Assembly (NCBI GenBank): GCA_016934735.1
Contig: JAFGSG010000052.1
Location: forward strand, 1-64,000
Direction of reading: 5' to 3'
Origin: Spirochaetota bacterium
GTDB lineage: Bacteria; Spirochaetota; UBA4802; JAFGDQ01
Length of the DNA: 64,000 nucleotides
Shown: positions 26,519-42,393 of the stretch, piece after piece
Numbering within the stretch: position 1 is the stretch's first letter
How the letters are laid out: every line of letters starts with the position of its first letter
Notes under the pieces: generated by a model
Seen by the model: only the letters and a program-made list of their open reading frames with translations
Told to the model about the DNA's origin: nothing
Databases searched by the model: none
Position numbers and translations under genes: made by a program

Positions 26519-27709
26519 ATGAATACAATACCATTATACGACAAGCGTACCGGAAACAAAGCAGGTCAAAGCTGCTGTTACCCTCAGGCTCAAACATGCT
26601 GCATCCAGCCTGATCAAAAAGATAAAACTATGGAAATGCCTTCAAAACAATTCAACAAAAAGCCTTCATGGATCTCGGATATAATTTTAACTTCTGCAGG
26701 GCAGGTGCCTGTTGTTGTTTCCGCGTGGTCGCGGTCCGATTTACTGGGACGCATTCGTGCCCGTATTGGATCATTCCGGATGCATTACAGCATCCCGCCG
26801 GGCCTGTACGCAATAGGAAAACCGGACGCAAACTCCGATGTATTCGTGAGCGCTAATTATAAACTCAGCTTTGATATACTGCGCCGTGAACTTGAGGGCA
26901 TAAACGGCTGGATACTCGTACTAGATACGAAAAGCATAAATGTATGGTGCGCTGCCGGCAAAGGGACTTTCGGCACAGACGAGCTTGTACGACAGATCGC
27001 CGGCACAAATCTCGCGGGTATTGTTTCACACCGAAGGATCATTGTGCCTCAGCTTGGTGCTGTTGGTGTAAAGGCATCTGAAGTTAAAAACAGAACAGGC
27101 TTTAGTGTTTTATTTGGCCCAGTCGAAGCAAAGGATATCAGGGAATACATCCGCTTAAATTACAAAGCTTCCGTTAAAATGAGAATGGCTGATTTTTCAT
27201 TAATGAAAAGGATTGAGCTGATCCCTGTAGAATTGAACCCAGCATTAAAAAAATACCCGTTTGCCGCAATTATAATTTTATTGCTTTTTGGGCTTGAACC
27301 TTCAGGAATAATTTTCCGCACTTCATGGATTGAAGGTTGGCCGTTCCTTTTGCTGGCATTGGCAGGAATTTTCACCGGTGCTTTTGCAACTCCTGTACTT
27401 TTGTCTGTAATCCCATTCAGGTCATTTGCCCTAAAAGGGACTATAACCGGCCTGATCGCCGGCATCCCGCTGGTTTATTTCACTTCCATGTTTAGCAATG
27501 ATTCCGGTATGCTTAAGGCCGCCGGTATTGTATTTATTACCGTATTGTCGTCATATCTGGCCCTGCAATTTACTGGAGCAACAACATTCACTGGCATCTC
27601 CGGGGTAAAGAAAGAAATTAAATTTGCCCTTCCGCTTTTTATTGCAGGACTAACTGCATCTTTAATATTTATAATCATTCATAAGTTAAATATTTGGGGG
27701 GTTATATGA
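26519..27709 (+). CDS. hgcA: HgcA, corrinoid protein of mercury methylation
   Basis: The 396-residue product has the diagnostic cap-helix motif N-V-W-C-A-A-G-K (residues 141-148), whose Cys144 is the lower axial ligand of the corrinoid cobalt in HgcA, inside a CdhD-like corrinoid domain (about residues 50-235). Five membrane helices follow (about 248-393), the HgcA topology. HgcA passes a methyl group to Hg(II), giving methylmercury, with HgcB as electron donor. AAAGGA lies 8 bases before the ATG. The N-terminus is longer than in the Desulfovibrio type and carries two vicinal cysteine pairs (C19-C20, C27-C28). The stop overlaps hgcB as ATGA. Confidence 0.96.
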   Translation: MNTIPLYDKRTGNKAGQSCCYPQAQTCCIQPDQKDKTMEMPSKQFNKKPSWISDIILTSAGQVPVVVSAWSRSDLLGRIRARIGSFRMHYSIPPGLYAIGKPDANSDVFVSANYKLSFDILRRELEGINGWILVLDTKSINVWCAAGKGTFGTDELVRQIAGTNLAGIVSHRRIIVPQLGAVGVKASEVKNRTGFSVLFGPVEAKDIREYIRLNYKASVKMRMADFSLMKRIELIPVELNPALKKYPFAAIIILLLFGLEPSGIIFRTSWIEGWPFLLLALAGIFTGAFATPVLLSVIPFRSFALKGTITGLIAGIPLVYFTSMFSNDSGMLKAAGIVFITVLSSYLALQFTGATTFTGISGVKKEIKFALPLFIAGLTASLIFIIIHKLNIWGVI

Positions 27710-28002
27710 CATATCTTAGAAAAGTAACAACATTGAATTATAATCCGCAAAGATGTACAGGCTGCGGCCGCTGTGTTGAAGTGTGTCCCCGCAATGTATT
27801 TGAAATGCGCGATAAAAAAGCGGTCATTACTGACAAAGACCGGTGTCTTGAGTGCGGAGCATGCGCCTTAAACTGCGATTTCAGCGCGATCTCCGTGAAC
27901 GCCAGCGCAGGTTGCGCTGCTGCGGTTATACGGGGAATGCTTACCGGTACAGAACCGGTGTGCGGATGCGGCGATAATTCAGGTAAAGTCGCCTGCTGCT
28001 GA
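27706..28002 (+). CDS. hgcB: HgcB, ferredoxin partner of HgcA
   Basis: A 98-residue two-cluster ferredoxin: C17-x2-C20-x2-C23-x3-C27 and C47-x2-C50-x2-C53-x3-C57 bind [4Fe-4S] clusters. The marks that separate HgcB from other ferredoxins are also present: an extra single Cys (C70, in the position of the essential Cys73 of the Desulfovibrio protein) and a C-terminal vicinal pair C97-C98. It supplies low-potential electrons to the corrinoid and may deliver Hg(II). The ATG overlaps the hgcA stop, with GGGGGG upstream, so translation is coupled. Confidence 0.96.
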   Translation: MTYLRKVTTLNYNPQRCTGCGRCVEVCPRNVFEMRDKKAVITDKDRCLECGACALNCDFSAISVNASAGCAAAVIRGMLTGTEPVCGCGDNSGKVACC

Positions 28003-28025: not shown

Positions 28026-28373
28026 ATGAAACAGAAATTAAATCCGCAATACGAAGCGCGGGCTAACATTATTAAGGCTATGGGACATCCCACAAGGCTT
28101 TTTATTCTTGAGGAAATATACAAAAACGAACGTTGCGTTAACGAATTGACTGAAATGATTGGGTCTGATATTTCAACCGTATCCAAGCATCTGAGCATTT
28201 TAAAAAATTCCGGACTTGTTCTTGACGAGAAACGAGGCAATAATATTTATTATAAATTGCGCACGCGCTGTATTATCGACTTCATAGGATGTATTGAAAC
28301 TGTTATTAAAACAAAAATTGAAGATGATATTCAGATCGCTCAATGTTGCGGCATCAGCTTTAAAAGAAAATAA
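28026..28373 (+). CDS. ArsR/SmtB-family transcriptional regulator
   Basis: A 115-residue winged-helix protein: GHPTRLFILEEIY starts the fold and DISTVSKHLSILKNSGLV is the recognition helix-turn-helix. Cysteines at NERCVNEL, RTRCIIDFIGC and a C-terminal QCCG pair could form a metal(loid) sensor site, unlike the classical ELCVCDL motif. It starts 23 bases after hgcB, so it is likely cotranscribed with hgcAB and may repress the operon until metal or arsenite binds. Confidence 0.92.
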   Translation: MKQKLNPQYEARANIIKAMGHPTRLFILEEIYKNERCVNELTEMIGSDISTVSKHLSILKNSGLVLDEKRGNNIYYKLRTRCIIDFIGCIETVIKTKIEDDIQIAQCCGISFKRK

Positions 28374-28451
28374 AACTTCCGGGATGCAGTATTTGAAAAG
28401 TATAATTAAAGTATTCAACATAACAAAAAATAAATTCACAGGGAGATAGTC

Positions 28452-28766
28452 ATGTTAGGAGTAACTGATTCAGCCGTAAAAGAATTAAAAAAAATTATTT
28501 CGGATTCCAATGGTACCGGTATCCGTGTTTTCGCGTCCCAGGGATGCTGCGGACCCTCTTACGGCTTTGATTTAACCGAAAATGGAAATGACGGAGATAG
28601 CCTGCTGGAGAAAGATGGCCTCAAAATATTTATAGACCCTGCTGCCTCCAACAGCCTTGATAATGCCACAATTGATTTTGTTGAAGAAGGATCGCATAAC
28701 GGCTTCATGATACAGGGATTGCCCGAACCTAATGCATGCTCCGGATCCGGCGGATGCTGCTGCTGA
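28452..28766 (+). CDS. HesB/IscA-like Cys-rich protein
   Basis: A 104-residue protein with the HesB/IscA fold (TDSAVKELKKII at the N-terminus, GLKIFIDPAASNSL and the C-terminal strand). Instead of the A-type CGCG it has a GCCGPSYGFDL motif mid-protein and a terminal ACSGSGGCCC tail. This form resembles HesB-like proteins of anaerobes, a family in which selenocysteine-containing members are known; here all positions are Cys. A GGGAG site precedes the ATG. It may carry Fe-S or a soft metal ion in the hgc/ars island. Confidence 0.8.
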   Translation: MLGVTDSAVKELKKIISDSNGTGIRVFASQGCCGPSYGFDLTENGNDGDSLLEKDGLKIFIDPAASNSLDNATIDFVEEGSHNGFMIQGLPEPNACSGSGGCCC

Positions 28767-28791
28767 TTATTTTTTATTATTAAGAAATAAT

Positions 28792-28820
28792 TTGACATGC
28801 TGCGTATATTTTGCTATATT
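28792..28820 (+). promoter_or_regulatory. Strong sigma-70-type promoter for second ArsR unit
   Basis: TTGACA (28792-28797), a 17-base spacer and TATATT (28815-28820) form a near-consensus promoter 20 bases before the ATG of the second ArsR gene. It marks a new transcription unit running into the permease genes. The leader would be very short, and no clear Shine-Dalgarno is visible. Confidence 0.7.
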
Positions 28821-28840
28821 ACCAAATAAGAATATATAAA

Positions 28841-29173
28841 ATGATTAAACAAACACAATCTCTATATGAAGCAAGAGCGGCGATAATCAAGGCACTGGCT
28901 CATCCGACCAGGCTTTTTATTGTTGAAATGCTTCAGAAGAGGGATTACAACGTTGGCGAACTCGTAGAGATGATAGGTGCTGATTTTTCAACCGTTTCTA
29001 AACATCTCACAACATTAAAAAATTCGGGCCTTGTTTCGGATGAAAGGAAGGGCACTACAATATATTACCATCTTAAAACGCCATGCATTCTTAATTTCAT
29101 CGGATGCGTAGAAGAAGTTCTTCAGATAAATGCCGATGAAAAATTAAACGTCTTATCGTATTGCAGGAAATAA
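28841..29173 (+). CDS. ArsR/SmtB-family transcriptional regulator (second copy)
   Basis: A 110-residue paralogue of the protein at 28026: SLYEARAAIIKALAHPTRLF and DFSTVSKHLTTLKNSGLV match it closely, and KTPCILNFIGC keeps the paired cysteines near the C-terminus. I start at the ATG (28841), not at the TTG inside the -10 box. It directly follows a strong promoter and precedes the permease gene by ~70 bases, the usual layout for an autoregulated metal(loid) efflux operon. Confidence 0.92.
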   Translation: MIKQTQSLYEARAAIIKALAHPTRLFIVEMLQKRDYNVGELVEMIGADFSTVSKHLTTLKNSGLVSDERKGTTIYYHLKTPCILNFIGCVEEVLQINADEKLNVLSYCRK

Positions 29174-29244
29174 TTTTTTATTGTTTCTATTTGAATATTT
29201 CGGCAAATAATCATATATTATAATTTTATTGATTGGAGTACTTT

Positions 29245-30543
29245 ATGAACTGGAAAGACGAATGGAAACCATTGCTTTGGATCGTGGCAGGATTTTTATT
29301 TTTATTTTACCTGCCTGTTGGAATACCAAGGTTTGATAATGCAATTTTTGAAGCATTGTATCTTGTAAAATGGTACGCGGAAGAGCATGTTTTGCTCTGC
29401 CTTGTTCCTGCATTTTTCATTGCGGGAGCTATTGCTGTATTCATAAGCCAGGAATCTGTAATGAAATACCTGGGGCCTGCAGCCAATAAAATACTCTCTT
29501 ACGGAGTATCTTCAGTCTCGGGAACTGTTCTTGCAGTATGTTCGTGCACAGTGCTTCCGCTTTTCTCGGGCATTTACCGCATGGGAGCAGGACTCGGGCC
29601 TGCGACTGCGTTTCTTTACTCTGGTCCTGCCATCAATGTGCTTGCGATTGTTCTTACAGCGCGAATACTCGGCATGGAGATCGGCATTGCAAGAGCAGTA
29701 GGCGCTGTACTCTTCAGCATAATTATTGGCCTCATAATGCATTTCATTTACAGAAAAGAAGAAATAGCAAAGATCAATGCCGCAAAGAATATGCCAGTAC
29801 CGGAAGTTAAGCGCGCTTTATGGAAGAATATAATTTATTTCGCTGCAATGATAGCGATACTGGTTTTCGCGAACTGGGGAAAACCCGTAGAAGCCAGCGG
29901 TTTGTGGTATTCAATATTCAATCTCAAATGGTTCATAACGGGAATTATTTCAATTATTTTTGCTATTGTGCTTATCGCATGGTTTGAATTCGCATGGTGG
30001 AAGATTTTGCTGGCAGCTGTTCCCGTAGCAGCTCTCTCCGCTGTATTCCCCGAACATCCGCTTATCGCGTTTACCGCGGGCGCAATCGGATTATCGGTCA
30101 TCACAAGCACATCTAAAGGCAAAGCGAATGACTGGTTCGCGTCAGTATGGGGATTCGCTAAGCAGATACTCCCTTTATTGCTTTTCGGAGTTCTTATCGC
30201 CGGTTTTGCTCTCGGCAGACCGGGACATGAAGGAATAATTCCAAACCAATGGGTGGCATGGGCAGTAGGTGGTAATTCGCTGTTCTCGAATTTCTTCGCG
30301 TCAATTGCCGGAGCATTCATGTACTTCGCAACCCTCACTGAAGTACCGATCGTGCAGGGGCTTATCGGCAGCGGCATGGGCAAAGGCCCCGCACTCGCTC
30401 TTTTGCTTGCGGGTCCAGCGCTTTCGCTTCCGAGCATGCTTGTAATTAAAAGCGTTATCGGCTGGAAAAAAACGCTGGTATTCGTAAGCCTTGTGGTAGT
30501 TATGGCAACAATTTCGGGTATGGTTTTTGGCGCATTTTTTTAA
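29245..30543 (+). CDS. ArsP/SO_0444-type permease
   Basis: A 432-residue polytopic protein of the DUF318/ArsP permease family, about ten to twelve helices. The signature is AVCSCTVLPLFSGIYRMGAGLGPATAFLYSG in the first half and its mirror GGNSL...FASIAGAFMYFATLTEVP...GKGPALALLLAGPALSLPS in the second. Relatives export organoarsenicals (ArsP) or have been named Cu/Zn exporters; in this setting a methylated or trivalent arsenic, or another soft metal, is likely. TTGGAG precedes the ATG at 29245. Cotranscribed with the redox proteins that follow. Confidence 0.88.
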   Translation: MNWKDEWKPLLWIVAGFLFLFYLPVGIPRFDNAIFEALYLVKWYAEEHVLLCLVPAFFIAGAIAVFISQESVMKYLGPAANKILSYGVSSVSGTVLAVCSCTVLPLFSGIYRMGAGLGPATAFLYSGPAINVLAIVLTARILGMEIGIARAVGAVLFSIIIGLIMHFIYRKEEIAKINAAKNMPVPEVKRALWKNIIYFAAMIAILVFANWGKPVEASGLWYSIFNLKWFITGIISIIFAIVLIAWFEFAWWKILLAAVPVAALSAVFPEHPLIAFTAGAIGLSVITSTSKGKANDWFASVWGFAKQILPLLLFGVLIAGFALGRPGHEGIIPNQWVAWAVGGNSLFSNFFASIAGAFMYFATLTEVPIVQGLIGSGMGKGPALALLLAGPALSLPSMLVIKSVIGWKKTLVFVSLVVVMATISGMVFGAFF

Positions 30544-30585
30544 TTTAACAATAATAATTAATATATTATAAGGAGTAGATAATTT

Positions 30586-30819
30586 ATGAAAAAAATACAA
30601 ATTCTCGGCACAGGCTGTCCAAAGTGCATGAAACTTGAAGAAGTTTCCAGAAAGGCCGCAGATGAACTCGGCATTGAATATGAGATGGAGAAAGTAAAGG
30701 ACATTAACAAAATCATGGAATTCGGCGTTATGATGACTCCCGCGCTTGTAGTGGATGGGGAAGTAAAGGTTGTGGGTAAAGTTCCTTCAACAGAAGACAT
30801 AAAAAAATACATCCAATAA
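30586..30819 (+). CDS. Small thioredoxin-fold redox protein (MTH895/TM0996 type)
   Basis: A 77-residue mini-thioredoxin with the active site GTGCPKCMKLEE (C-P-K-C, residues 11-14) and the cis-Pro stretch MMTPALVVDGEV. Genes of this family regularly follow DUF318 permeases and ArsR regulators. It is probably a cytoplasmic thiol-disulfide or metal-handling partner of the permease. AAGGAG upstream; 17 bases to the DGC gene, so one operon. Confidence 0.92.
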   Translation: MKKIQILGTGCPKCMKLEEVSRKAADELGIEYEMEKVKDINKIMEFGVMMTPALVVDGEVKVVGKVPSTEDIKKYIQ

Positions 30820-30835
30820 TTACAGGAGACCATAT

Positions 30836-31243
30836 ATGGCAGATAATTGCTGTTCAACAGAAGAAATAAAACTTCTATATTCCTGCTCAGGCACAGCAGA
30901 TGTAGGCGAAGTCGCTGACAAGGCAACGCGCAAGCTGCGCGATCAGGGATTCGGCCGCATGTCATGCCTTGCGGCAATTGGAGCAGATCTTTCCGGATAC
31001 ATTGAATCAGCAAAGGGAGCATACGAAAACATCGCGATAAACGGATGTCCTACTCAATGTGCTACAAAAACACTTGAGCGGATTGGCGTTACACCAACAT
31101 CCTTCGTTCTTACGGATATGGGTTTTAAAAAAGGCAAATCTCCTGTCACAGATGAAGCTGTAGATAAAATACTAAGCCTGGTTAAATTTGTTCCCATGCC
31201 TGGTATATCAGCTGGAGGTTGCGCTTGCGGAGGCAATTGCTGA
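30836..31243 (+). CDS. DGC-domain putative zinc-binding protein
   Basis: A 135-residue protein of the DGC family: LLYSCSGTADVGEVADKA, GRMSCLAAIGAD and INGCPTQCATKTLE are its conserved Cys blocks. It adds an ADNCCS N-terminus and a GGCACGGNC tail, so it has eleven cysteines. Members bind zinc or other thiophilic metals and sit beside metal efflux genes; the mechanism is not known. AGGAGA precedes the ATG. It ends this sub-operon before a 162-base gap. Confidence 0.88.
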   Translation: MADNCCSTEEIKLLYSCSGTADVGEVADKATRKLRDQGFGRMSCLAAIGADLSGYIESAKGAYENIAINGCPTQCATKTLERIGVTPTSFVLTDMGFKKGKSPVTDEAVDKILSLVKFVPMPGISAGGCACGGNC

Positions 31244-31267
31244 TTTTTTGTATTAACTCGCGATTTA

Positions 31268-31317
31268 TTGATTAATGTCAGTTTACAAAGCCACTCTTTA
31301 AATACTGGATTAATCAA
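31268..31317. repeat. Inverted repeat after DGC gene
   Basis: Arms TTGATTAAT (31268-31276) and ATTAATCAA (31309-31317) are perfect complements, with AGT/ACT pairing further in. The loop is ~30 bases. It lies in the gap between two sub-operons and could be a weak terminator or operator; there is a TTT only after the arm. Confidence 0.4.
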
Positions 31318-31405
31318 TTTACCATAAAAATAAATACACCATTTGCAGATGCGTGGGTAGTAAGGTAAATAAAAATACTCGATAAATATTTAAGGAGATT
31401 AAAGC

Positions 31406-31927
31406 ATGAAGCTTTTCAAAAGGTTTATAGTGATAGCTGTGATTGCCGCTTTTGCAGTTATAGCGGGTAATGTTAGTTTCGATTATTCCTGCGATTGCGG
31501 GACTGTGTCATTCCCCTTCACACTTATCACAAAAATATTTGATACTGCGGCGGAGACCCCTGCCGATGAGACTCACAAACATGAAACAGATGGAGCGGCT
31601 TCCCTTCTGGGCGGAGTCGCCTTTGCGCAGCAAAAGGGCGCTAAAATCAAAGTAACATTTATAGAACTCGGCTCAGTCAACTGCATCCCTTGCAGAATGA
31701 TGCAGCCTGTAATGAAGCAGATTGAACAGAAATATGGAAGCCAGGTGAAGGTTGTTTTTCACGATGTATGGACAGAGAAGGGAGCGCCTTATGCCCGCAC
31801 ATACGGCATTAGAGCAATCCCTACGCAGGTTTATCTGGATAGCAACGGCAGGGAATTTGCGCGTCATGAGGGCTTTCATCCTTTTGAAGAAGTAGAAAAA
31901 ATTCTGAGAAAGGGAGGCGTCCGCTGA
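31406..31927 (+). CDS. Membrane-anchored thioredoxin-fold protein
   Basis: A 173-residue protein with an N-terminal signal anchor (FIVIAVIAAFAVIAGNVSF), a spacer with a C-D-C pair and a His-rich patch (ETHKHETDG), then a thioredoxin domain with active site NCIPCRM (C-I-P-C, about residues 92-95) and cis-Pro in AIPTQVYLD. It should act outside the inner membrane. It is coupled to the CcdA-like gene, whose ATG overlaps its stop, so CcdA probably keeps it reduced. AAGGAG before the ATG. Confidence 0.88.
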   Translation: MKLFKRFIVIAVIAAFAVIAGNVSFDYSCDCGTVSFPFTLITKIFDTAAETPADETHKHETDGAASLLGGVAFAQQKGAKIKVTFIELGSVNCIPCRMMQPVMKQIEQKYGSQVKVVFHDVWTEKGAPYARTYGIRAIPTQVYLDSNGREFARHEGFHPFEEVEKILRKGGVR

Positions 31928-32649
31928 TGATACTTGAGTTCTTCACCGCGCTCTCAAACATGCTTAACTCATCTCCCGGTATAGCTATCGCAGGATCCTT
32001 TCTGTGGGGAATTGCCAGCATAATACTGTCGCCATGCCATCTCGCGAGCATTCCACTTGTAGTGGGATTTATAGACAAGCAGGGAAGCATCAGTACCGAA
32101 AGGGCAGCAGCAATATCAACGCTTTTTTCCTTAGGCATACTTATCACTATAGGCCTTGTGGGTCTTATCACAGGCATTCTTGGAAGAATGCTTGGAGATG
32201 TGGGGCAGTATGGAAATATTTTCGTAGCGGTTATTCTTATAGTTGTAGGCCTTTATCTTATGGGAATAATCCGGCTCCCTTTTCTTGAAAACGGGGTGAA
32301 CCAGCCCGGTATGAAGAAGAAAGGGCTATTTGCCGCTTTTCTGCTCGGGCTCATATTCGGGCTCGCGCTCGGCCCATGCACATTCGCTTACATGGCACCG
32401 ATGCTGGGCGTTGCTTTTACGGTTGCATCGTCAAATCTTCCTTATGCAGTTGCTCTTGTCGCTGCGTATGCGATCGGGCATTGTCTCGTAATTATTATCG
32501 CGGGCACATTTACCGAAACGGTCAATCATCTGCTTCGATGGAACGACGAATCGAAGGGAGCTGTAATTGTTAAAAAAATCTGCGGAATGCTTGTAATTAT
32601 TGCGGGCATTTATATGCTTATAACTGCCGTAAAAATTTATACTGGCTAA
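31927..32649 (+). CDS. CcdA-like transmembrane electron transporter
   Basis: The 240-residue membrane protein has six helices with the CcdA/DsbD-beta cysteine pair: one in ILSPCHLASIPL (helix 1) and one in ALGPCTFAYMAP (helix 4), each after Pro as in the family. It moves electrons from cytoplasmic thioredoxin to the outer face, where the preceding thioredoxin-like protein is the likely acceptor. One-base overlap with that gene and 3 bases to the VKOR-DsbA gene show one operon. Confidence 0.92.
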   Translation: MILEFFTALSNMLNSSPGIAIAGSFLWGIASIILSPCHLASIPLVVGFIDKQGSISTERAAAISTLFSLGILITIGLVGLITGILGRMLGDVGQYGNIFVAVILIVVGLYLMGIIRLPFLENGVNQPGMKKKGLFAAFLLGLIFGLALGPCTFAYMAPMLGVAFTVASSNLPYAVALVAAYAIGHCLVIIIAGTFTETVNHLLRWNDESKGAVIVKKICGMLVIIAGIYMLITAVKIYTG

Positions 32650-32652
32650 GTT

Positions 32653-33915
32653 ATGAATATAAACAGATTAATTATATTTTTTATCCTTGCTGCTTCGCTT
32701 GCAGGACTTATTCTCAGCGCGCTTTTAATACTGGAGTATTTCGGCCTTGCGTCTGCCGCTGCTGATGTCGTATGCGAGCGGGGAAGCGGCGTTAACTCCT
32801 GCACGATCGTATCCGCAAGCCCTTTCGCTTCCATAAAAGGAGTTCCGCTTATCGGTGATGTGCCGACAGCGGTTTTCGGTTTTATGTTTTACGGATTCAT
32901 CGCTGTAATAACGTTTATGCATATTATCAGGCGAAATGACGATGAAAATATGCAGATATATCTGTTAATATTAATTCTATCCGCTATTGCAATTGTGGGA
33001 GATATCGCCCTGAACCTTATATCTGTATTTATCATAAAATTCCTCTGCCCGTTGTGTTCCATGACTTATGCCGCAACTGCAGTTATTATAATATCTTCCG
33101 TTATTTTAGTAAAGAACAATCGAATCTTTACAGGAAAACCAATTATAATCCAAATGAAAAAATATTTTATGAAACACATTCTGAATTATGTCGTTATTGC
33201 GTTTGTATTTGCTGCTGTCGGCATAAGCATAGGCCATGGAGCGCGTGCGATAGCACAGACAAAAAAAGCTTCGACTTATGAAGAGCGTCTCCAGAAAGCC
33301 ATCCGCCAGTACGAAACGGCAAAACCAATAAATTTATCTTTAGACGAAACACCTGTATCAGGGAAGCCGGCTGCTCTGGCTAAATTTGTTATATTCTTTG
33401 ATTTTACATGTGTTCACTGCAGGACTGAATTTTTAGTGTTTGAAAAATTGATAAAAAAATATCCTGACGAGATGTCGGTTGCTTTTAAATTTTTCCCTTT
33501 AAACGGCCATTGCGGCATGCTGCAAAAAGGAAGAGACGACAGGGAAGCCGATGCATGCATTGCCTCCGCAGCTGCTTTCTGCGCGCACAATCAGGGGAAA
33601 TTCATGGAATACGCGAAAATACTTTTCGAGAGTTATCACTTTAAAGACATGGAATTCTCGATAGAAACCGTCAGGAAAGCAGCAAAAAATGCAGGGCTTG
33701 ACCCTGCAGGCTTTGACCTGTGTTTCGGATCACGGACAGCCATCGAATTCGTAAGAACGCAATATATGGAAACGGAAGCTCTCAATATAAACAGCACACC
33801 GACTCTTTTTTTAAACGGGAAAAAACTGACCGCGGGGTCGCGCAAAGAAGATATAATTGAAGGGCTTATAAGGTACTGTATTGAAAAAAATAAACAGGCC
33901 AGAAAAGAAGATTAA
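32653..33915 (+). CDS. VKOR-DsbA fusion, disulfide-forming
   Basis: The 420-residue protein joins an N-terminal vitamin-K-epoxide-reductase domain (residues ~1-190; loop cysteines in VVCERGSGVNSC, active pair CPLC near residue 137) to a DsbA/thioredoxin-like domain (from ~225; active site TCVHCRTEF, cis-Pro in STPTLFLNGK). Such fusions oxidise exported thiols and pass electrons to quinone. Having it next to a CcdA reductive branch suggests opposing oxidising and reducing arms act on exported thiol proteins of this island. Confidence 0.93.
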   Translation: MNINRLIIFFILAASLAGLILSALLILEYFGLASAAADVVCERGSGVNSCTIVSASPFASIKGVPLIGDVPTAVFGFMFYGFIAVITFMHIIRRNDDENMQIYLLILILSAIAIVGDIALNLISVFIIKFLCPLCSMTYAATAVIIISSVILVKNNRIFTGKPIIIQMKKYFMKHILNYVVIAFVFAAVGISIGHGARAIAQTKKASTYEERLQKAIRQYETAKPINLSLDETPVSGKPAALAKFVIFFDFTCVHCRTEFLVFEKLIKKYPDEMSVAFKFFPLNGHCGMLQKGRDDREADACIASAAAFCAHNQGKFMEYAKILFESYHFKDMEFSIETVRKAAKNAGLDPAGFDLCFGSRTAIEFVRTQYMETEALNINSTPTLFLNGKKLTAGSRKEDIIEGLIRYCIEKNKQARKED

Positions 33916-33996
33916 GCGGAATGCGTCTAAAAAAATATATACTTGAGGATCACTTTGCATAAATTTTAAATACCATATCACCATATGGAGGATCAT

Positions 33997-35187
33997 ATGT
34001 CAAACGAAGCTTCTATTACAACGGCACAATCCGGACAAAAAGGACTGGGATTCTTTGAAAAATATCTGTACATCTGGGTCATTCTCTGCATTTTCGCAGG
34101 TATAATCCTCGGCAAGTCAGCTCCCGGAATCGCCATGTATCTGGACGGCCTCGCTATTTACGTGGGAGAAGCACCGGTTGTATCCATACCTATTGCCATA
34201 TGTCTTTTTTTTATGATGTATCCCATTATGGTAAAGATCGATTTCACAGAGGTCATCAAAGCAGGCAAAAGCGGAAAACCTGTATTTCTTACGCTGATTA
34301 TTAACTGGGCAATCAAACCATTTACAATGTACGGGATATGCCTGTTTTTTCTCGGCACCGTATTTTATGCTTTAATCGGCCCGGATGCGATAGATCATGT
34401 GAAAATGCCTTTCGGTCTTGATCTTCCCGCGGGAGCATCCCACGGGGCAGGCACAGTCGTTATTGTTGAAGGAGTTAAGATGCTTGCGGTTCCGCTATGG
34501 CGCAGCTATCTTGCGGGCTGTATTCTGCTGGGCATAGCCCCGTGTACGGCTATGGTCCTTGTATGGGGATTTCTGGCACGCGGCAACGACGGCCTGACCC
34601 TGGTAATGGTTGCCATTAATTCGCTTACCATGCTTATTCTGTACGGCGTGCTTGGAGGATTTTTACTCGGTGTGGGAAGGCTTCCTGTGCCATGGCAGGC
34701 GCTACTGTTATCCATAGCCATATATGTTGCGCTTCCTCTTGTTGCAGGTTTCCTGTCGAGAAAATGGATCATATCAGCAAAAGGTGAAAAATGGTTTAAA
34801 GAAAAATTTCTTCATGTTTTAACGCCTGTAACGATCATCGCTCTCCTTGTCACCCTGGTACTGCTGTTCAGCTTCAAGGGGGAGGTAATTGTTGCCAAAC
34901 CATTGACAATTTTATGGATCGCGATTCCGCTATTTATTCAGACAAATCTGATTTACTGGCTCGCATACGGATTAGCGAAGCTGCTAAGACTTAAATATCA
35001 GGATGCCGCACCCGCTGCTATGATCGGGGCTTCAAATCACTTTGAAGTTGCCATAGCAACAGCGACCATGCTTTTCGGACTTTCGTCAGGTGCGGCGCTG
35101 GCAACTGTGGTCGGCGTATTGATTGAAGTGCCGGTAATGCTCATGCTGGTAAAGATAAGTCTTAAGACAAAGCATTGGTTCATTTAA
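33997..35187 (+). CDS. acr3: ACR3-family arsenite exporter
   Basis: The 396-residue protein has ten helices and typical ACR3 blocks: the N-terminal [16 protein letters not shown], the catalytic-cysteine region [16 protein letters not shown] (Cys in helix 4) and the Glu-containing [18 protein letters not shown]. It exports As(OH)3, possibly antimonite, through the inner membrane. I start at 33997 because GGAGG ends 6 bases before it; an ATG at 33985 contains that site. It lies 81 bases after the VKOR fusion. Confidence 0.95.
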
Positions 35188-35301: not shown

Positions 35302-35712
35302 ATGGGTAGACTAATTATAAAATTTATTTTTATTACAGCGACAGCTATCCTGTCCACAGCGTTTTTTTTCTCAAAGCCATCAATACATTTTGATAACACC
35401 GAATACGATTTCGGTGAAGTTCCTGAAGACAGCTTACAGACCTGCGAGTTCGTCTTCCATAACAAGGGCAAAGGCACTCTTGTTATTGAAAAAGTTGAGG
35501 GCGGTTGAGGATGTACACCTGTCCTTCTCACTGAGAAGGAAATCCCTGCCGGCGGCAAAGGGAAAATTATGGTAGAATGGCACATTGAACGGATCCCCAA
35601 AAGGGTAAAACAAAAATCCATTCGGGATTCCGAAACCATAACGGTAATATCCAACGACCCGGAAAATAAAATGATCCGGCTCAAGATAAGAGCGACTGTG
35701 ATGAAAAAATAG
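35302..35712 (+). CDS. DUF1573 selenoprotein (in-frame TGA read as Sec69)
   Basis: The frame from ATG 35302 is open to TAG 35710-35712 apart from TGA at 35506-35508. Upstream lie a signal anchor and FDFGEVPEDS-type DUF1573 sequence; downstream, in the same frame, GCTPVLLTEKEIPAGGKGKI and TITVISNDPENK complete the domain. DUF1573 proteins usually have S-C-G-C-T at this point; here it reads G-G-U-G-C-T, so TGA replaces the first Cys. A perfect 8-bp hairpin has its loop 22 bases after the TGA. The mature protein (136 residues) should be exported. A nonsense mutation is the alternative, but a second TGA gene follows. Confidence 0.82.
35522..35540 (+). promoter_or_regulatory. Candidate bacterial SECIS hairpin for DUF1573 gene
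   Basis: TCCTTCTC and GAGAAGGA form a perfect 8-bp stem around ACT; the loop starts 22 bases after the TGA, within the 16-37 base range of bacterial SECIS elements. The minimal loop lacks the usual G at its first two positions, so the fit is good for place and stem, not for loop sequence. Confidence 0.55.
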
Positions 35713-35821
35713 TTTTTATATTTATAAGGATGCTTATCTGGAAATCTGCGCAGGTATGGGTACTGCACAAATTAATTAAAAGGATAAATAAAAATTTTTT
35801 AAAATAATTTAGGAGGTAAAT

Positions 35822-36190
35822 ATGTCGGAGAATAAAGATGATATATTACATGACGAAAAAGATAAGCAGAAGGATCCAGTTGAATCTCAGCATGAAGAGC
35901 ATGGTTGAGCCGGAGGAGGATGAGCCCTCCCCACGCCGCCTGGCGGGTGGCATGTAATCCAATTCCCCGATGACACAGAGGTTCGTCTTGCGGGTCTGGA
36001 CGGTATAATGTTTGAATTGTACCTAGAAGGCAGAATGGCAAATGATGAAACCGTAGAAGAGATCATCAAAAAGCTGGAAGAAAGAAAGAACTATATACCT
36101 TCCTCTGACCATGCACGAAGAGAGTATTCTTATGCTATATTAAAAGAATATAAAAATTATTTAAAAGAAAAAGCCGGTAAAAGTACCTGA
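35822..36190 (+). CDS. Small protein with two in-frame TGA (U29-x4-U34)
   Basis: TAGGAGGT, a near-perfect ribosome site, stands 4 bases before ATG 35822. The frame has TGA at 35906-35908 and 35921-35923 (codons 29 and 34), then stays open to 36190, 122 residues in all. Reading both as Sec gives HG-U-AGGG-U-ALPTPPGGWHVIQF, then an acidic/helical part (LDGIMFELYLEG, EYSYAILKEYKNYLK). The first 28 residues are charged, with His pairs. The coding style continues smoothly past both TGAs. I do not recognise the family. A diselenide or metal-binding site is my inference from U-x4-U. Confidence 0.72.
35931..35950 (+). promoter_or_regulatory. Candidate SECIS hairpin serving both TGAs
   Basis: CCAC-G-CCGC pairs with GCGG-GTGG around CTG, with one bulged G. 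The loop is 17 bases after the second TGA and 31-32 after the first, both inside the known range, so one element could serve both. The GC-rich stem is striking in AT-rich DNA. The loop is not canonical (no G in the first two positions). Confidence 0.5.
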
Positions 36191-37112: not shown

Positions 37113-37967
37113 TTATTTTTTCTTAGCAGCAATAATTTTCTCCACGATCTGAGAAAAATTCTGCTGAGAGATGCTGCCGGACGATTTTCCTGCAAAAGGT
37201 TTTCCTGAATCTCCGTTCTCAGTTATCTGAGCTTCAAGCGGGATGCTTCCCAGAAACGTAAGACCCATATCATTTGCCATTCGGCTTCCCCCGCCGGTTT
37301 TAAATATATCGGTTGTTTTTCCGCAATGAGGGCAGACAAAGCCGCTCATGTTCTCTACAACGCCAAGTATCGGCAGGTTTAATTTTCTGCAGAAGGTAAC
37401 GGATTTGCGCACATCAGAAAGTGCGACATCCTGAGGGGTAGTAACAATAATTGCGCTCCTCGGATTTTCAATAAGCTGGCATATTGATAAAGGCTCATCA
37501 CCTGTTCCTGGAGGCGAGTCAACCACTAAATAATCGAGATTACCCCATTCTACATCCTTCAGAAACTGTTTTATTATGCTGTACTTTAAAGGCCCGCGCC
37601 AAATAACTGCGTCATCGCTGTTATTAAGCATAAATCCTATCGACATTACTTTTAAGTATTCGCTGTAACTCACCGGCATTATTCTTTCTTCATTCCCCTG
37701 CAGGGTTCTATTCTCGATACCGAGCAGCTTCGGTACACTCGGGCCGTGGATGTCAATATCGAGAAGCCCTGTTTTATATTTTTTCTCTGCCAGAGAAACA
37801 GCGAGGTTAACTGCAACCGTACTCTTGCCTACACCGCCTTTGCCGGAAAGCACTATTAATTTATTCTCGATCTTAGCCATATTGCTGCGAAGCGCTTCGT
37901 TTTCTTCAGCTTCTTTATTCTGCGCTTCCGCATCGGATGATGCTTTCATATTATTTTTTTCAGACAT
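37113..37967 (-). CDS. Mrp/NBP35-type Fe-S carrier ATPase
   Basis: A 284-residue P-loop ATPase. Start at 37967 (MSEKNNMK) is set by GGAG 7 bases upstream. Marks are the deviant Walker A GKGGVGKSTVAVNLA, DIDIHGPSVPKLLG, DSPPGTGDEP and the cluster-bridging pair CPHCGK (C-x2-C, about residue 220). It transfers [4Fe-4S] clusters to target proteins. In the Desulfovibrio ORP operon a Mrp-type ATPase also accompanies ORP and two Fe-S MinD ATPases. Confidence 0.93.
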   Translation of the reverse strand: MSEKNNMKASSDAEAQNKEAEENEALRSNMAKIENKLIVLSGKGGVGKSTVAVNLAVSLAEKKYKTGLLDIDIHGPSVPKLLGIENRTLQGNEERIMPVSYSEYLKVMSIGFMLNNSDDAVIWRGPLKYSIIKQFLKDVEWGNLDYLVVDSPPGTGDEPLSICQLIENPRSAIIVTTPQDVALSDVRKSVTFCRKLNLPILGVVENMSGFVCPHCGKTTDIFKTGGGSRMANDMGLTFLGSIPLEAQITENGDSGKPFAGKSSGSISQQNFSQIVEKIIAAKKK

Positions 37968-37995
37968 AATATACTCCAATTATAATTTAAATTTA

Positions 37996-38376
37996 TTATA
38001 AATTTTTATTTTTATCCCAATAATTCATGATGGCATTTTTAAGCCCTGTGGCTCCGAGATTCGAACAATGCTGTTTGTGATCCGGCAATCCGTCAAGCGC
38101 ATTTATAATGTCCTCATCACTTATCATCACTGCGTCTTCAATGTTTTGCCCAATCGCGAGTTCCGTCATTACGCTTGCACAGGCGATAGATGCGGGACAT
38201 CCATGTATAAGGTATTTCACATCAGCTATATTATCACTATCTATTTTAATATATACACGTAAAAAATCGCCGCAGTTAGAGTCCCCGGCCTCTCCAATAC
38301 CGTCAGCCTCTTCAATTGTTCCAGCGTTTCTCGGTTTTTTAAAATGTTCATATACTTTGTCGCTGTATTCATTCAT
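37996..38376 (-). CDS. NifU/IscU-like iron-sulfur scaffold
   Basis: A 126-residue IscU-type scaffold: YSDKVYEHFKKPRNAGTIEEADGIGEAGDSNCGDFLRV carries the first ligand Cys, HGCPASIACASVM the second and DHKQHCSNLG the third. It assembles [2Fe-2S]/[4Fe-4S] clusters for transfer. It lies 28 bases upstream of the Mrp-type gene, which would be the natural acceptor carrier. An upstream AAAAAGATG is a weak ribosome site. Confidence 0.93.
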   Translation of the reverse strand: MNEYSDKVYEHFKKPRNAGTIEEADGIGEAGDSNCGDFLRVYIKIDSDNIADVKYLIHGCPASIACASVMTELAIGQNIEDAVMISDEDIINALDGLPDHKQHCSNLGATGLKNAIMNYWDKNKNL

Positions 38377-38434
38377 CTTTTTCTATTTCCTCATGCACCT
38401 TTATTATTATGATGAATTTTCTCCTGTAACATAA

Positions 38435-39277
38435 TCAAAATTCAAAAACCGACCCCGCAGAAGCAAGGCGGAATTTTTCTTTAAATTCCTTTGCGAATAA
38501 GCATTCGATGTTAAACCCGGTACAATGTGAAGGAGCAATTATTTTTACTTTGTACTGTTTTACAGATTCAAATGCTTTTGCAACATATTCCTTCGGCGCT
38601 GTTCCAAGATGAGTGCCTCCGATTACCGCAAAAAATTCCTTGTATCCGGTATGGGATGAAATATCATCCAGAATCTCGATTATGCCAGCATGAGCGCACC
38701 CGAGAAGCACTACAGGACCGGAATCCGTCTCCAGTAAAAGCGAAAGATCATCCAAAAAAGGATCGTCCATTATGGTGTCATTAATCTTCTGTTTAAGGCG
38801 CGCATCCCAGCATTTCCAGCCTGAAGGACGCTTTATTTCAGAAATAGCTGAAAGATTTTTTGTTACAGGGAAATAACCATTAATTAAATTAAATTCAGCT
38901 CCCGCTTTTTCGTAATCCATACGTTCTTTCGGCAATCCGATATATCTCTCAATTAATGTACCGCTTTCCGTATGATGAGCGTATTTGCCGTTGAATATGG
39001 CCGGATGTGCGAATACCAGTATATTACTGCCGTGGTCTTCCAGTACTGAGAATAGTCCGCCGGTATGATCATAATGGCCATGGCTCAGAATAATGCGCTG
39101 TATCGCCCTTACATCTTTTCCCATCACAGTCATATTATTTATGATTCCGAGCCCCTGGCCTGTATCGAACAACGTAACATCTTCATTCTCAATAAAAAAC
39201 GAAAGTCCGTGCTCCGCAATAAGCCTGAAAGGGGCATATACACTGTTTTCGCATAGAACCGTAATTCTTGTCTTCAT
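38435..39277 (-). CDS. MBL-fold metallo-hydrolase
   Basis: The 280-residue protein has the metallo-beta-lactamase metal motif SHGHYDHTGG (H-x-H-x-D-H), further ligands in HPAIF, GCAHAG and the C-terminal APSHCTG. It is of the MJ0936/TM0894-like dihydropterin-synthase-related group that often stands in ORP-type operons. Substrate not known. It follows the NifX-like gene by 5 bases. Confidence 0.88.
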   Translation of the reverse strand: MKTRITVLCENSVYAPFRLIAEHGLSFFIENEDVTLFDTGQGLGIINNMTVMGKDVRAIQRIILSHGHYDHTGGLFSVLEDHGSNILVFAHPAIFNGKYAHHTESGTLIERYIGLPKERMDYEKAGAEFNLINGYFPVTKNLSAISEIKRPSGWKCWDARLKQKINDTIMDDPFLDDLSLLLETDSGPVVLLGCAHAGIIEILDDISSHTGYKEFFAVIGGTHLGTAPKEYVAKAFESVKQYKVKIIAPSHCTGFNIECLFAKEFKEKFRLASAGSVFEF

Positions 39278-39282
39278 GTCTC

Positions 39283-39708
39283 TTACTGCTGCTTAATAAT
39301 ATCAGATCTGCAGCCTCTCTGACGTTTCTTCCGGCCGCATCCGCCGGGACCACCATTACGTAACGATTTAAGCCCGCCTTTAAGATACTGGTCAATAACA
39401 TTATCTGCCGGGCCGCTTATCCATGAAATGAGACGCAGACCTTTTTCACGAATAAGCTCGGATACAAAACTGCTTACAGCACCGCCGATAATTACAGATA
39501 CGCCTATTTCCTTAAGCTTATCTATCCTCTGCGTTTCGTCTTCAGGATGTATATCAGCTATGATTTTCTGCTTGATCTCGCCTTCCAGAATCTCGTACAC
39601 CGCGAATTTTTTCGCAACATCGAGCAAAGGAGAGACCCGCTCCTGATATACCGGTACTGCTACCATTTCATGTTTCATACTGATTAAATTCTCTTTATTT
39701 TTTGCCAT
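39283..39708 (-). CDS. NifX/ORP-family protein with Gly/Cys-rich tail
   Basis: A 141-residue member of the dinitrogenase iron-molybdenum cofactor family (VAVPVYQERVSPLLDVAKKF, IGVSVIIGGAVSSFV, NVIDQYLKGGLKSL). The tail NGGPGGCGRKKRQRGC adds two cysteines. Such proteins bind Mo-containing or Fe-S clusters (ORP holds a S2MoS2CuS2MoS2 cluster). AAGAGAA suggests the true start may be 39678 (MKHEMVAVP). No nif gene is near, so nitrogen fixation is unlikely. Confidence 0.88.
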   Translation of the reverse strand: MAKNKENLISMKHEMVAVPVYQERVSPLLDVAKKFAVYEILEGEIKQKIIADIHPEDETQRIDKLKEIGVSVIIGGAVSSFVSELIREKGLRLISWISGPADNVIDQYLKGGLKSLRNGGPGGCGRKKRQRGCRSDIIKQQ

Positions 39709-39836
39709 AAGGGCATATCCTGCTTAAAGCCTATTCCGGCAGAAATTATCCCGTATATAAAATATTTTTTTATACTGCCGGATCGATTTCCAAATCCGGC
39801 TGAAAGTGACGTTAATTATTAATCTTATTGACCGTT

Positions 39837-40172
39837 TTAATGGTCGCATGTATTGCCGCCGGTCTGCAATGTGCCTTTCAGATATTGTTCTACAATTTCT
39901 TTAGCAGATCCTCCCGCTGCCCCGGTTATTACTTTAATCCCATTCTCGGTAAAAAGCTGCTGAGCACGGCTTCCCATGCCACCAGCAATGACGCAATTAA
40001 CGCCTTTTTCGGACAGCCACCTGGGCAAAAGCCCTGGTTCATGAGCCGGCGGTATTACACTGCTTTCATTCACTAATTTTCCATCAGAGTCCGTATCAAT
40101 AAGCGCAAAAGTCTCACAATGGCCGAAATGAGCGCAAAGAACTCCATTATAAGTTGGTACTGCAAATTTCAT
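39837..40172 (-). CDS. NifX/ORP-family protein
   Basis: A 111-residue single-domain NifX/ORP protein: MKFAVPTYNGVLCAHFGHCETFALID at the start, VNCVIAGGMGSRAQQLF in the middle and IVEQYLKGTLQTGG at the end. This is the closest of the three to ORP-type proteins (H-F-G-H motif). It is cytoplasmic and lies between the second ATPase gene and the tailed NifX gene. AGGAT precedes the ATG. Confidence 0.92.
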   Translation of the reverse strand: MKFAVPTYNGVLCAHFGHCETFALIDTDSDGKLVNESSVIPPAHEPGLLPRWLSEKGVNCVIAGGMGSRAQQLFTENGIKVITGAAGGSAKEIVEQYLKGTLQTGGNTCDH

Positions 40173-40226
40173 TTAATCCTCCAGATTTTTCTTTTTTTTA
40201 TATTATTTAAAATACTTTTAAAAGAC

Positions 40227-41111
40227 TTACATATCCCCTATAATCAATTCTATTCTCTTAAAAATGTCTTTTATTGCTATACTTGCTCCGCATTCGCTTT
40301 TGTAGTCGACAATTGATTTACCAGCTCTCTGTGCTTCGGTAACTGCAGAATCAAAAGGAATTTCACCAATAAAATCAAGATTATTCAGACTGCAATAATC
40401 TTTTATTTTATTCAACAGCCCGGGATTGATATCGAATTTATTTACTACAACGGCAGTTTTAATTTTAAAATGATTCGCCAGACCGACAATGCGTTCAAGG
40501 TCATGGACGCCTGCTGGTGTAGGTTCAGTTATAACTATCACGAGCTTTGTTCCTGTTACCGATGAGATAACAGGACATCCTATTCCCGGAGGGCCGTCTA
40601 TTATAACAAGGCCTATATCCGCTGATTTTGCTTCAATCCTGGCTTCGTTTCGTACTGCAGAGACAAGTTTGCCGGAATTATCCTCCCCGGGATGCATCTC
40701 CGCATAGACAAAACGTTCGTTGTTTCCGGTGTCCGTTACATACCATGTACCGGCTGTGCCTTCAGTAATATTTACTGCACAGTGCGGGCATAGAGCAAAA
40801 CAGGCACCGCATCCCTCGCACATAAAAGGGTCAATAACAAAATCCGGGGATATCGCTTCAAAGCGGCATGCATCTAGGCATATACCGCATTTGGTACAGA
40901 GTTCAGGATCAATATCCGCTTTTTTACCTCCGGCAAAATCGCTTTGACGGACTACCTTTTCCGGATTAAGAATCAAATGCAGATTTGCCGCATCCACATC
41001 GCAATCAACCATAACTTTGCCTGTAAAAAGCGAAGCAAGCGCTGCAGTCAAAGAAGTTTTGCCTGTGCCTCCTTTGCCGCTGACAATGACTATTTCATTT
41101 ATCTTTTTCAT
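40227..41111 (-). CDS. Ferredoxin-MinD family P-loop ATPase (1)
   Basis: The 294-residue protein is a MinD/ParA-type ATPase (SGKGGTGKTSLTAALA, DCDVDAANLHL, DGPPGIGCPVISS) with a two-cluster ferredoxin inserted after the first third (CTKCGICLDACRFEAI and CEGCGACFALCPHCAV). This is the architecture of Desulfovibrio DVU2103/DVU2104 in the ORP complex. It probably couples ATP hydrolysis to metal-cluster insertion. It starts 11 bases after the companion ATPase. Confidence 0.95.
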   Translation of the reverse strand: MKKINEIVIVSGKGGTGKTSLTAALASLFTGKVMVDCDVDAANLHLILNPEKVVRQSDFAGGKKADIDPELCTKCGICLDACRFEAISPDFVIDPFMCEGCGACFALCPHCAVNITEGTAGTWYVTDTGNNERFVYAEMHPGEDNSGKLVSAVRNEARIEAKSADIGLVIIDGPPGIGCPVISSVTGTKLVIVITEPTPAGVHDLERIVGLANHFKIKTAVVVNKFDINPGLLNKIKDYCSLNNLDFIGEIPFDSAVTEAQRAGKSIVDYKSECGASIAIKDIFKRIELIIGDM

Positions 41112-41121
41112 ATTTAATATT

Positions 41122-41976
41122 TTACAAACTTTTCCCTGTTAATTTCATTATATTATCAGCCAGTATTTTAAAATGATCTCTATATCCGGGAAGCGAAATT
41201 AATAACAACTCCCCCCTGGAATATGCTTCTGCTATGTCTCTGTCCTCAGGTACACTCATAAGAACAGGAATGTCTTCTTGATCAAGATATTCTTTTAAAG
41301 GCGGATATTCCCCATCCCTGTTAATAACCACACCGAAGAGTTTGCTCATATTAATAGCCACTGACATTGCGATTTTTAAATCGTGAAGGCCGAACGGGGT
41401 TGGTTCAGTTACAAACACAACAAAATCAGCATCCGTAATTGTCTTTACTACAGGACATGAAGTGCCAGGCGGTGCATCAATGATCCTTATATAATCTTCT
41501 TTAAAATTTTTCTTCACCGCTGTTATAACCGGCACAGCCATGGGCTCCCCCACATTGAGTACTCCCTGAACAAAGCTTATACCGTTTACAGTACTACCCT
41601 CTTCAATAAAACCGATTTCGCGTTGCTCTTCACTAATGGCTTTTTCCGGGCATATCCTGACACATAATGCGCATCCATGGCACAATTCCTGGAAGACCAA
41701 AACTTTATCTTTTATAGTTACTATAGCATTAAATCTGCACTCTGCGCTGCATCTTCCGCAAAAATTACACTTATCCAGATCGACAGAAGGAACCATAACC
41801 TTGACTGCCGTTTTATTGTCATAATCCGGCTTTAGGAAAAGATGCCCGTTAGGCTCTTCCACATCGCAGTCAAGATACTGCACTTTCTTTCCGGATTCGG
41901 CAAGATAATATGCTAAGTTGACCGCGATGGTCGTCTTCCCTGTGCCTCCTTTACCGCTCGCAAATACTATTTTCAT
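41122..41976 (-). CDS. Ferredoxin-MinD family P-loop ATPase (2)
   Basis: A 284-residue paralogue of the next protein: ASGKGGTGKTTIAVNLA, LDCDVEEPNGHLFL, IDAPPGTSCPVVK, and an inserted double [4Fe-4S] module (CNFCGRCSAECRFNAI and CHGCALCVRICPEKAI). Both are needed in ORP-like operons and likely form a heterodimer. It lies 60 bases after the first NifX-like gene of the operon. Confidence 0.95.
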   Translation of the reverse strand: MKIVFASGKGGTGKTTIAVNLAYYLAESGKKVQYLDCDVEEPNGHLFLKPDYDNKTAVKVMVPSVDLDKCNFCGRCSAECRFNAIVTIKDKVLVFQELCHGCALCVRICPEKAISEEQREIGFIEEGSTVNGISFVQGVLNVGEPMAVPVITAVKKNFKEDYIRIIDAPPGTSCPVVKTITDADFVVFVTEPTPFGLHDLKIAMSVAINMSKLFGVVINRDGEYPPLKEYLDQEDIPVLMSVPEDRDIAEAYSRGELLLISLPGYRDHFKILADNIMKLTGKSL

Positions 41977-42036
41977 GGATTTTCTTATCTTTTGTTTTAA
42001 TTTTTTTACAGACAGATTATATATAATATTATCGCT

Positions 42037-42393
42037 TTACCAGTGCCCTTCTACATCAGACCCTGTTAATTTTATAAGCTTTCCGTTCCTGTAAGCCTCA
42101 ATCGCTTCCTTTACGGTAATGTTTGATGCAGCAAATGCCTCGATGCCGGCGGCATTGAGTACACGGAAAGCGTTGGGTCCTAAATGCCCTGATATCACCA
42201 CTTTCACGCCAGCATCAATTATATTCTGCGCAGTTTGAATGCCTGCTCCCTGTGAGGCGCTCATATTCAATTTGTTGTCAATAACATTGATGTTTTGTTT
42301 TTCAGAATCATATAAAATTATTTTCTTCGCTCGGCCGAATCTTTCGTCCAGTCCACCTTCTATTGTCCCATCTATGCTTGTTATTGCTATCAT
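42037..42393 (-). CDS. NifX/ORP-family protein, first gene of operon
   Basis: A 118-residue NifX/ORP domain (GGLDERFGRAKKIILYD, VKVVISGHLGPNAFRVL, ITVKEAIEAYRNGKL). It has no cysteine, so it would bind a cluster with other ligands or act as an accessory. AAAGGGAGA before the ATG is strong. It is the promoter-proximal gene of the minus-strand ORP-like run 37.1-42.4 kb. Confidence 0.92.
   Translation of the reverse strand: MIAITSIDGTIEGGLDERFGRAKKIILYDSEKQNINVIDNKLNMSASQGAGIQTAQNIIDAGVKVVISGHLGPNAFRVLNAAGIEAFAASNITVKEAIEAYRNGKLIKLTGSDVEGHW

Follow-up and report, generated by a model that had tools for sequence, protein, structure and literature searches.

A gene with two in-frame TGA codons at the end of an arsenic/mercury island

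At positions 35822-36190 of the window (the whole 64,000-nucleotide stretch of DNA analyzed here), the plus strand carries a frame made up of 28 codons opened by an ATG, a TGA, four codons, a second TGA, 88 codons and a stop. The internal TGAs are codon 29 (35906-35908) and codon 34 (35921-35923), the terminal stop (36188-36190) is a TGA as well, and a Shine-Dalgarno sequence (AGGAGG) is located on the same strand at 35811-35816. With TGA read as selenocysteine (Sec, U), translation yields a product of 122 residues with U29 and U34, MSENKDDILHDEKDKQKDPVESQHEEHGUAGGGUALPTPPGGWHVIQFPDDTEVRLAGLDGIMFELYLEGRMANDETVEEIIKKLEERKNYIPSSDHARREYSYAILKEYKNYLKEKAGKST. The coding assignment draws on this translation, on a homologue with two TGAs and on the substitution pattern between the two genes. 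An earlier note on this DNA, made from its letters, had described the start, the strong AGGAGG site, the TGAs at codons 29 and 34 and the open frame that follows, and all of these match the sequence; the 89 further codons that it counted after the second TGA are 88 sense codons and the stop.

The double-Sec gene is the last of an island whose genes lie on one strand (plus), and it would be co-transcribed with them. At the head of the island are the mercury methylation genes hgcA and hgcB (26519-28002; NF040863, 386 bits, and NF040864, 114 bits, both over their cut-offs), followed at 28026-33915 by arsR, an IscA/HesB-like gene, a second arsR, arsP, and genes for a small thioredoxin, a DGC-domain protein, a thioredoxin, a DsbD-like protein and a VKOR-DsbA protein. 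Then come the arsenite efflux transporter gene acr3 (33985-35187; TIGR00832, 366 bits, cut-off 283) and an OS_HP2/DUF1573 gene (35302-35712; Pfam DUF1573, E 3.5e-20; NF041425 OS_HP2_seleno, 71.8 bits, cut-off 100), which has its own in-frame TGA (35508-35510) within a GG-U-GCT motif. The double-Sec gene is thus directly downstream of another TGA gene in an island of ars genes and hgcAB, as had been noted before. An hgcAB pair next to ars genes has been documented (PMC7438021).

Other features of the region were recorded. The complete hgcA-hgcB pair makes this uncultured spirochaete a predicted mercury methylator. The DGC-domain protein of the arsenic operon (30836-31243) contains several cysteine motifs. 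On the minus strand, the 37113-42393 segment encodes proteins named by eye as Mrp/NBP35-like and ferredoxin-containing MinD-like ATPases and small dinitrogenase-cofactor-like proteins.

The genome encodes a Sec decoding system

The source genome (3.55 Mb, Spirochaetota) contains a tRNA-Sec gene (71 bits; ARAGORN tRNA-SeC, anticodon tca), a SelB that scored 314 bits against a cut-off of 242, a SelA on the same contig, recognized by reading its sequence, and a SelD above its cut-off with an in-frame TGA of its own. The earlier note had proposed a search for selABCD; tRNA-Sec, SelA, SelB and SelD are all present, and the genome is not one that lacks Sec genes. Ordinary long ORFs of the window also end in TGA (12 true stop TGAs). 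With TGA ending these ORFs in the ordinary way and a Sec system encoded in the genome, a reassigned genetic code is ruled out.

Both TGAs are conserved in a second genus

One clear relative was found among 198 Spirochaetota genomes (E 3.3e-33). It comes from a MAG (G002; contig JAFGDQ010000116.1, Spirochaetes bacterium Zod_Metabat.1181) of the same family but a different genus, contains two internal TGAs and ends in TAA; its product, with TGA read as U, is MEENEKKKDIQGSEYLSGNENHVSQHVEHKUADGGUVPLTPPVGRRMLVFHDDTRISLSGLDDIMAELHSESKEANDETVNEIIRRLEAKKNYIPSSDRARKDYSYALLKEYRKYIKNRKEEKK. In this comparison of two sequences the proteins are 52% identical, TGA is found at both aligned positions, and both proteins contain the motif H-x-x-H-x-U-A-x-G-G-U (HxxHxUAxGGU). 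Recurrence of both TGAs in a second genome rules out a sequencing error. The relative starts upstream of both TGAs, rather than only after the second, which the earlier note had named as the finding that would speak against its reading.

Between the two TGAs, the genes differ at 0, 1 and 4 sites at codon positions 1, 2 and 3, respectively. Downstream of the second TGA, the differences are 22, 25 and 49 in 88 codons (pN 0.26, pS 0.74), synonymous sites being close to saturated and dN much lower than dS. From the second TGA to Met63 (M63), dN is 0.41 and dS is about 2, and the window has no in-frame ATG, GTG or TTG start in this interval. The N-termini before the first TGA are divergent, except for S-Q-H-x-E-H close ahead of U29. 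Coding conservation around the TGAs is thus strong downstream and confined to the last few residues upstream. The substitution pattern indicates that protein-coding conservation (purifying selection) runs through both TGAs, and conservation across them rules out two separate ORFs under the standard code. For the operon neighbours, identity between the genomes is 89% (ACR3) and 88% (ArsP), compared with 52% for the double-Sec protein; its gene evolves faster, yet both TGAs are kept.

acr3 is the constant partner of the double-Sec gene

The island of the relative has the order arsR, arsP, small thioredoxin, thioredoxin, DsbD-like, radical SAM maturase-like, acr3 and double-Sec gene. There, the double-Sec gene begins 27 nt past acr3, with no OS_HP2 gene between them, and hgcB and hgcA follow ~1 kb further on, after a ModA-like gene and on the other strand. 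In both genomes the double-Sec gene is the last of the island, downstream of acr3. The placement of OS_HP2 and hgcAB differs between the genomes, so that acr3 is its constant partner. A third genome of the same family (G001) encodes SelB and has a related ars island, acr3 included, and lacks the double-Sec gene. The gene is therefore not essential to the ars system, and since SelB is present, loss of Sec coding is ruled out as the cause of its absence.

The radical SAM gene of the relative (L046, 7525-8844) resembles maturases of tungsten-cofactor oxidoreductases (TIGR04317, 304 bits, below the cut-off of 380). It takes the place that VKOR-DsbA has in the window, with the DsbD-like gene before it and acr3 after it.

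One candidate SECIS hairpin is within range of both TGAs

The bacterial SECIS (bSECIS) rules ask for a G in the first two loop positions, a distance of 16-37 nt from the UGA and a stability of -7.5 kcal/mol or lower (PMC13188914). A candidate hairpin that follows these rules is located at 35932-35954 on the plus strand, with the loop GGC at 35942-35944, 33 nt after the first TGA and 18 nt after the second; the earlier proposal of one hairpin at SECIS distance from both TGAs thus held. The loop of the relative is GGUC, and in both genomes a hairpin with a GG-starting loop is found 32-33 nt past the first TGA and 17-18 nt past the second. Each of the four TGAs, two in either genome, satisfied the rules at -12 to -13 kcal/mol, the best-scoring fold for the first TGA of the window using a neighbouring loop. 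As for controls, the TGA of SelD passed (-15.9 kcal/mol) and none of the 12 true stop TGAs did. Random TGAs, on the other hand, also passed in 38 of 299 cases (8 of them at -11 kcal/mol or lower), so that the hairpin is supportive only. Synonymous shuffles were as stable as the hairpin in 10, 12, 12 and 3 of 60 cases; its stability is unexceptional relative to synonymous recoding, and taken alone the hairpin is weak evidence. The TGA of the OS_HP2 gene failed the strict bSECIS rules; together with its score below the cut-off (71.8 bits; cut-off 100), this may denote an atypical class of SECIS.

These data suggest that (i) both TGAs, as two conserved Sec codons, almost certainly encode Sec, which would be inserted at both UGAs; (ii) the gene specifies, in all likelihood, a probably cytosolic two-Sec protein of 122 residues, with one SECIS hairpin probably serving both UGAs; and (iii) the hairpin is consistent support for Sec decoding rather than proof of it, whereas conservation of the TGAs in two genera goes beyond chance.

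The double-Sec protein has no match among known families

Scans of Pfam, NCBIfam (its selenoprotein models included) and PDB assigned the double-Sec protein to no sequence family; at permissive E-values there were weak matches only. This agrees with the earlier note, in which the family was not recognized. A Penicillinase_R match of the G002 homologue (E 0.012) was below the cut-off and absent from the window protein. The C_GCAxxG_C_C family (PF09719), suggested by the segment G-U-A-G-G-G-U, gave no match to E 10, and the G before the first U is K in the homologue.

A profile of the two proteins retrieved no other convincing member from the nearest 296 Spirochaetota genomes, from an overlapping set of 393 drawn evenly across Spirochaetota or from 46 members of the class, and no Cys homologue, which would mark the Sec positions as thiol-equivalent, was seen in these genomes, other phyla being covered by exact short patterns only. 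Weak matches in six Spirochaetota genomes (G043, G123, G104, G153, G238 and G082) were chance-like where readable, the minus-strand ones having been read outside their matching frame. No relative turned up among viral, plasmid or phage records. The wider bacterial collection was searched by exact short peptide patterns, which makes this search shallow outside Spirochaetota. The 2026 selenoprotein catalogue comprises 119 families and lists UxxxxU for TsoB alone (PMC13188914). By sequence, this is a new family of selenoproteins that belongs to a kind already known, the double-Sec proteins of metal/metalloid islands.

An AlphaFold2 model built on the two sequences (mean pLDDT 57.5) has a beta hairpin and three helices, with the first 40 or so residues poorly ordered. 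The model had no fold match at E ≤ 0.001, and it was too weak for a fold assignment. With a model of this quality, "flexible" for the tail and "helical" for the C-terminal domain are soft terms. No signal peptide or membrane segment was apparent by eye, which points to a cytosolic location.

Discussion

A tail ending in HxxHxUAxGGU, encoded in an operon with a constant arsenite-pump neighbour, most resembles a ligand site. A ligand tail would fit the retention of Q-H-x-E-H ahead of U29 in an otherwise divergent N-terminus, and the low predicted order of residues 1-41. We propose that the flexible N-terminal tail would bind a soft thiophilic ion through its two selenolates, and perhaps two histidines, with As(III) as the first choice of ligand and Hg(II) or methylmercury as the second. 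The helical C-terminal domain would dock the protein to a partner, which may be ACR3, and the protein would buffer the ion or pass it to ACR3, in much the way that the Cys-x4-Cys pair of ArsD serves ArsA. ACR3 is not known to require a chaperone. The statement as a whole, that a double-Sec protein encoded at the end of an arsenic-export operon binds a soft ion for ACR3, has in our judgment an even chance of being correct; metal(loid) binding with ArsD-like hand-off to ACR3 or buffering falls slightly short of that. The earlier note had offered a diselenide and soft-metal binding as inferred roles of the two Sec, and both keep that standing here.

The main rival, which we regard as possible but unlikely, is a diselenide redox protein whose two Sec reversibly carry electrons, for instance to or from the operon thioredoxin and DsbD/VKOR, or reduce an arsenical. 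Selenoproteins are mostly redox proteins (PMC13188914), and the operon contains genes for two thioredoxin-like proteins, a DsbD-like protein and VKOR-DsbA. Yet searches with the double-Sec protein turned up no redox fold or family, thioredoxin-like or otherwise, its U-x4-U is placed in a poorly ordered tail, unlike the common UxxC/CxxU, and there is no arsenate reductase among the island genes scanned.

It is improbable that the ligand or substrate is mercury, as Hg(II) or methylmercury, and that the protein serves the adjacent hgcAB instead of arsenic export. Selenolates bind mercury very strongly. In both genomes hgcAB belongs to the same island, and Sec forms of HgcA and HgcB have been catalogued (PMC13188914), but the gene that constantly adjoins is acr3, and in G002 hgcAB is on the other strand past the ModA-like gene.

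Far less probable still is a pair of real stops, giving a 28-residue peptide and then a separate small protein (e.g., from M63, at 36008) with the remainder untranslated or decaying: TGA normally terminates in this window and an in-frame ATG at M63 is kept in both genomes, but the codons between the TGAs and on to M63 show protein-level conservation, a decaying gene would not carry just these two stops, at the same codons in both genera, and no strong Shine-Dalgarno site precedes M63 in the window.

The double-Sec protein adds a family to the prokaryotic selenoproteome, and its motif HxxHxUAxGGU is absent from the 2026 catalogue (PMC13188914). A pair of neighbouring Sec residues has been retained, with no Cys relative known, in an island that includes mercury-methylation genes, and the compact protein lends itself to asking whether selection can favour Sec for soft-metal binding as opposed to redox catalysis. 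Such a role was suggested, and left open, for several metal-resistance selenoproteins in a 2026 review (PMC13188914).

Among known selenoproteins, TsoB (NF045694) likewise has two Sec five residues apart (UxxxxU; PMC13188914), but it is rhodanese/DsbD-fusion-like and unrelated to the double-Sec protein. MbdU (NF045648) and NF041115 share with it two Sec, predicted metal binding and bacterial origin, although their catalogued motifs are CU and UxxU rather than U-x4-U. In the NCBIfam scan to E 10, the HMMs of TsoB, MbdU and NF041115 matched neither homologue. The Sec-assisted organometallic (SAO) system is similar in clustering selenoproteins for organometal(loid) handling and in having a related permease (the window ArsP resembles SaoE, with 114 bits against a cut-off of 325); it has another gene set, however, and no Sao selenoprotein model matches the double-Sec protein. 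The OS_HP2/DUF1573 selenoprotein is encoded by an adjoining Sec gene of the same island, but it is unrelated in sequence and absent between acr3 and the double-Sec gene in G002.

ArsD normally works with ArsA, and no such partner was found among the island genes scanned. Like ArsD, the double-Sec protein would be a small cytosolic product of an ars operon with N-terminal soft ligands, and the x4 spacing of U29 and U34 is that of Cys13-x4-Cys18 in ArsD, where Cys12, Cys13 and Cys18 are needed for As(III) binding and transfer (PMC4562236). In contrast to ArsD, it has Sec in place of Cys, a His pair and another C-terminal domain, and no ArsD model of Pfam or NCBIfam matched it to E 10. Tentatively, the double-Sec protein may be the first of a family of metallochaperones based on selenium: a counterpart of ArsD, lacking any known cysteine relative, in which a His-flanked tail with paired Sec would capture arsenite (or mercury) and hand it to ACR3.
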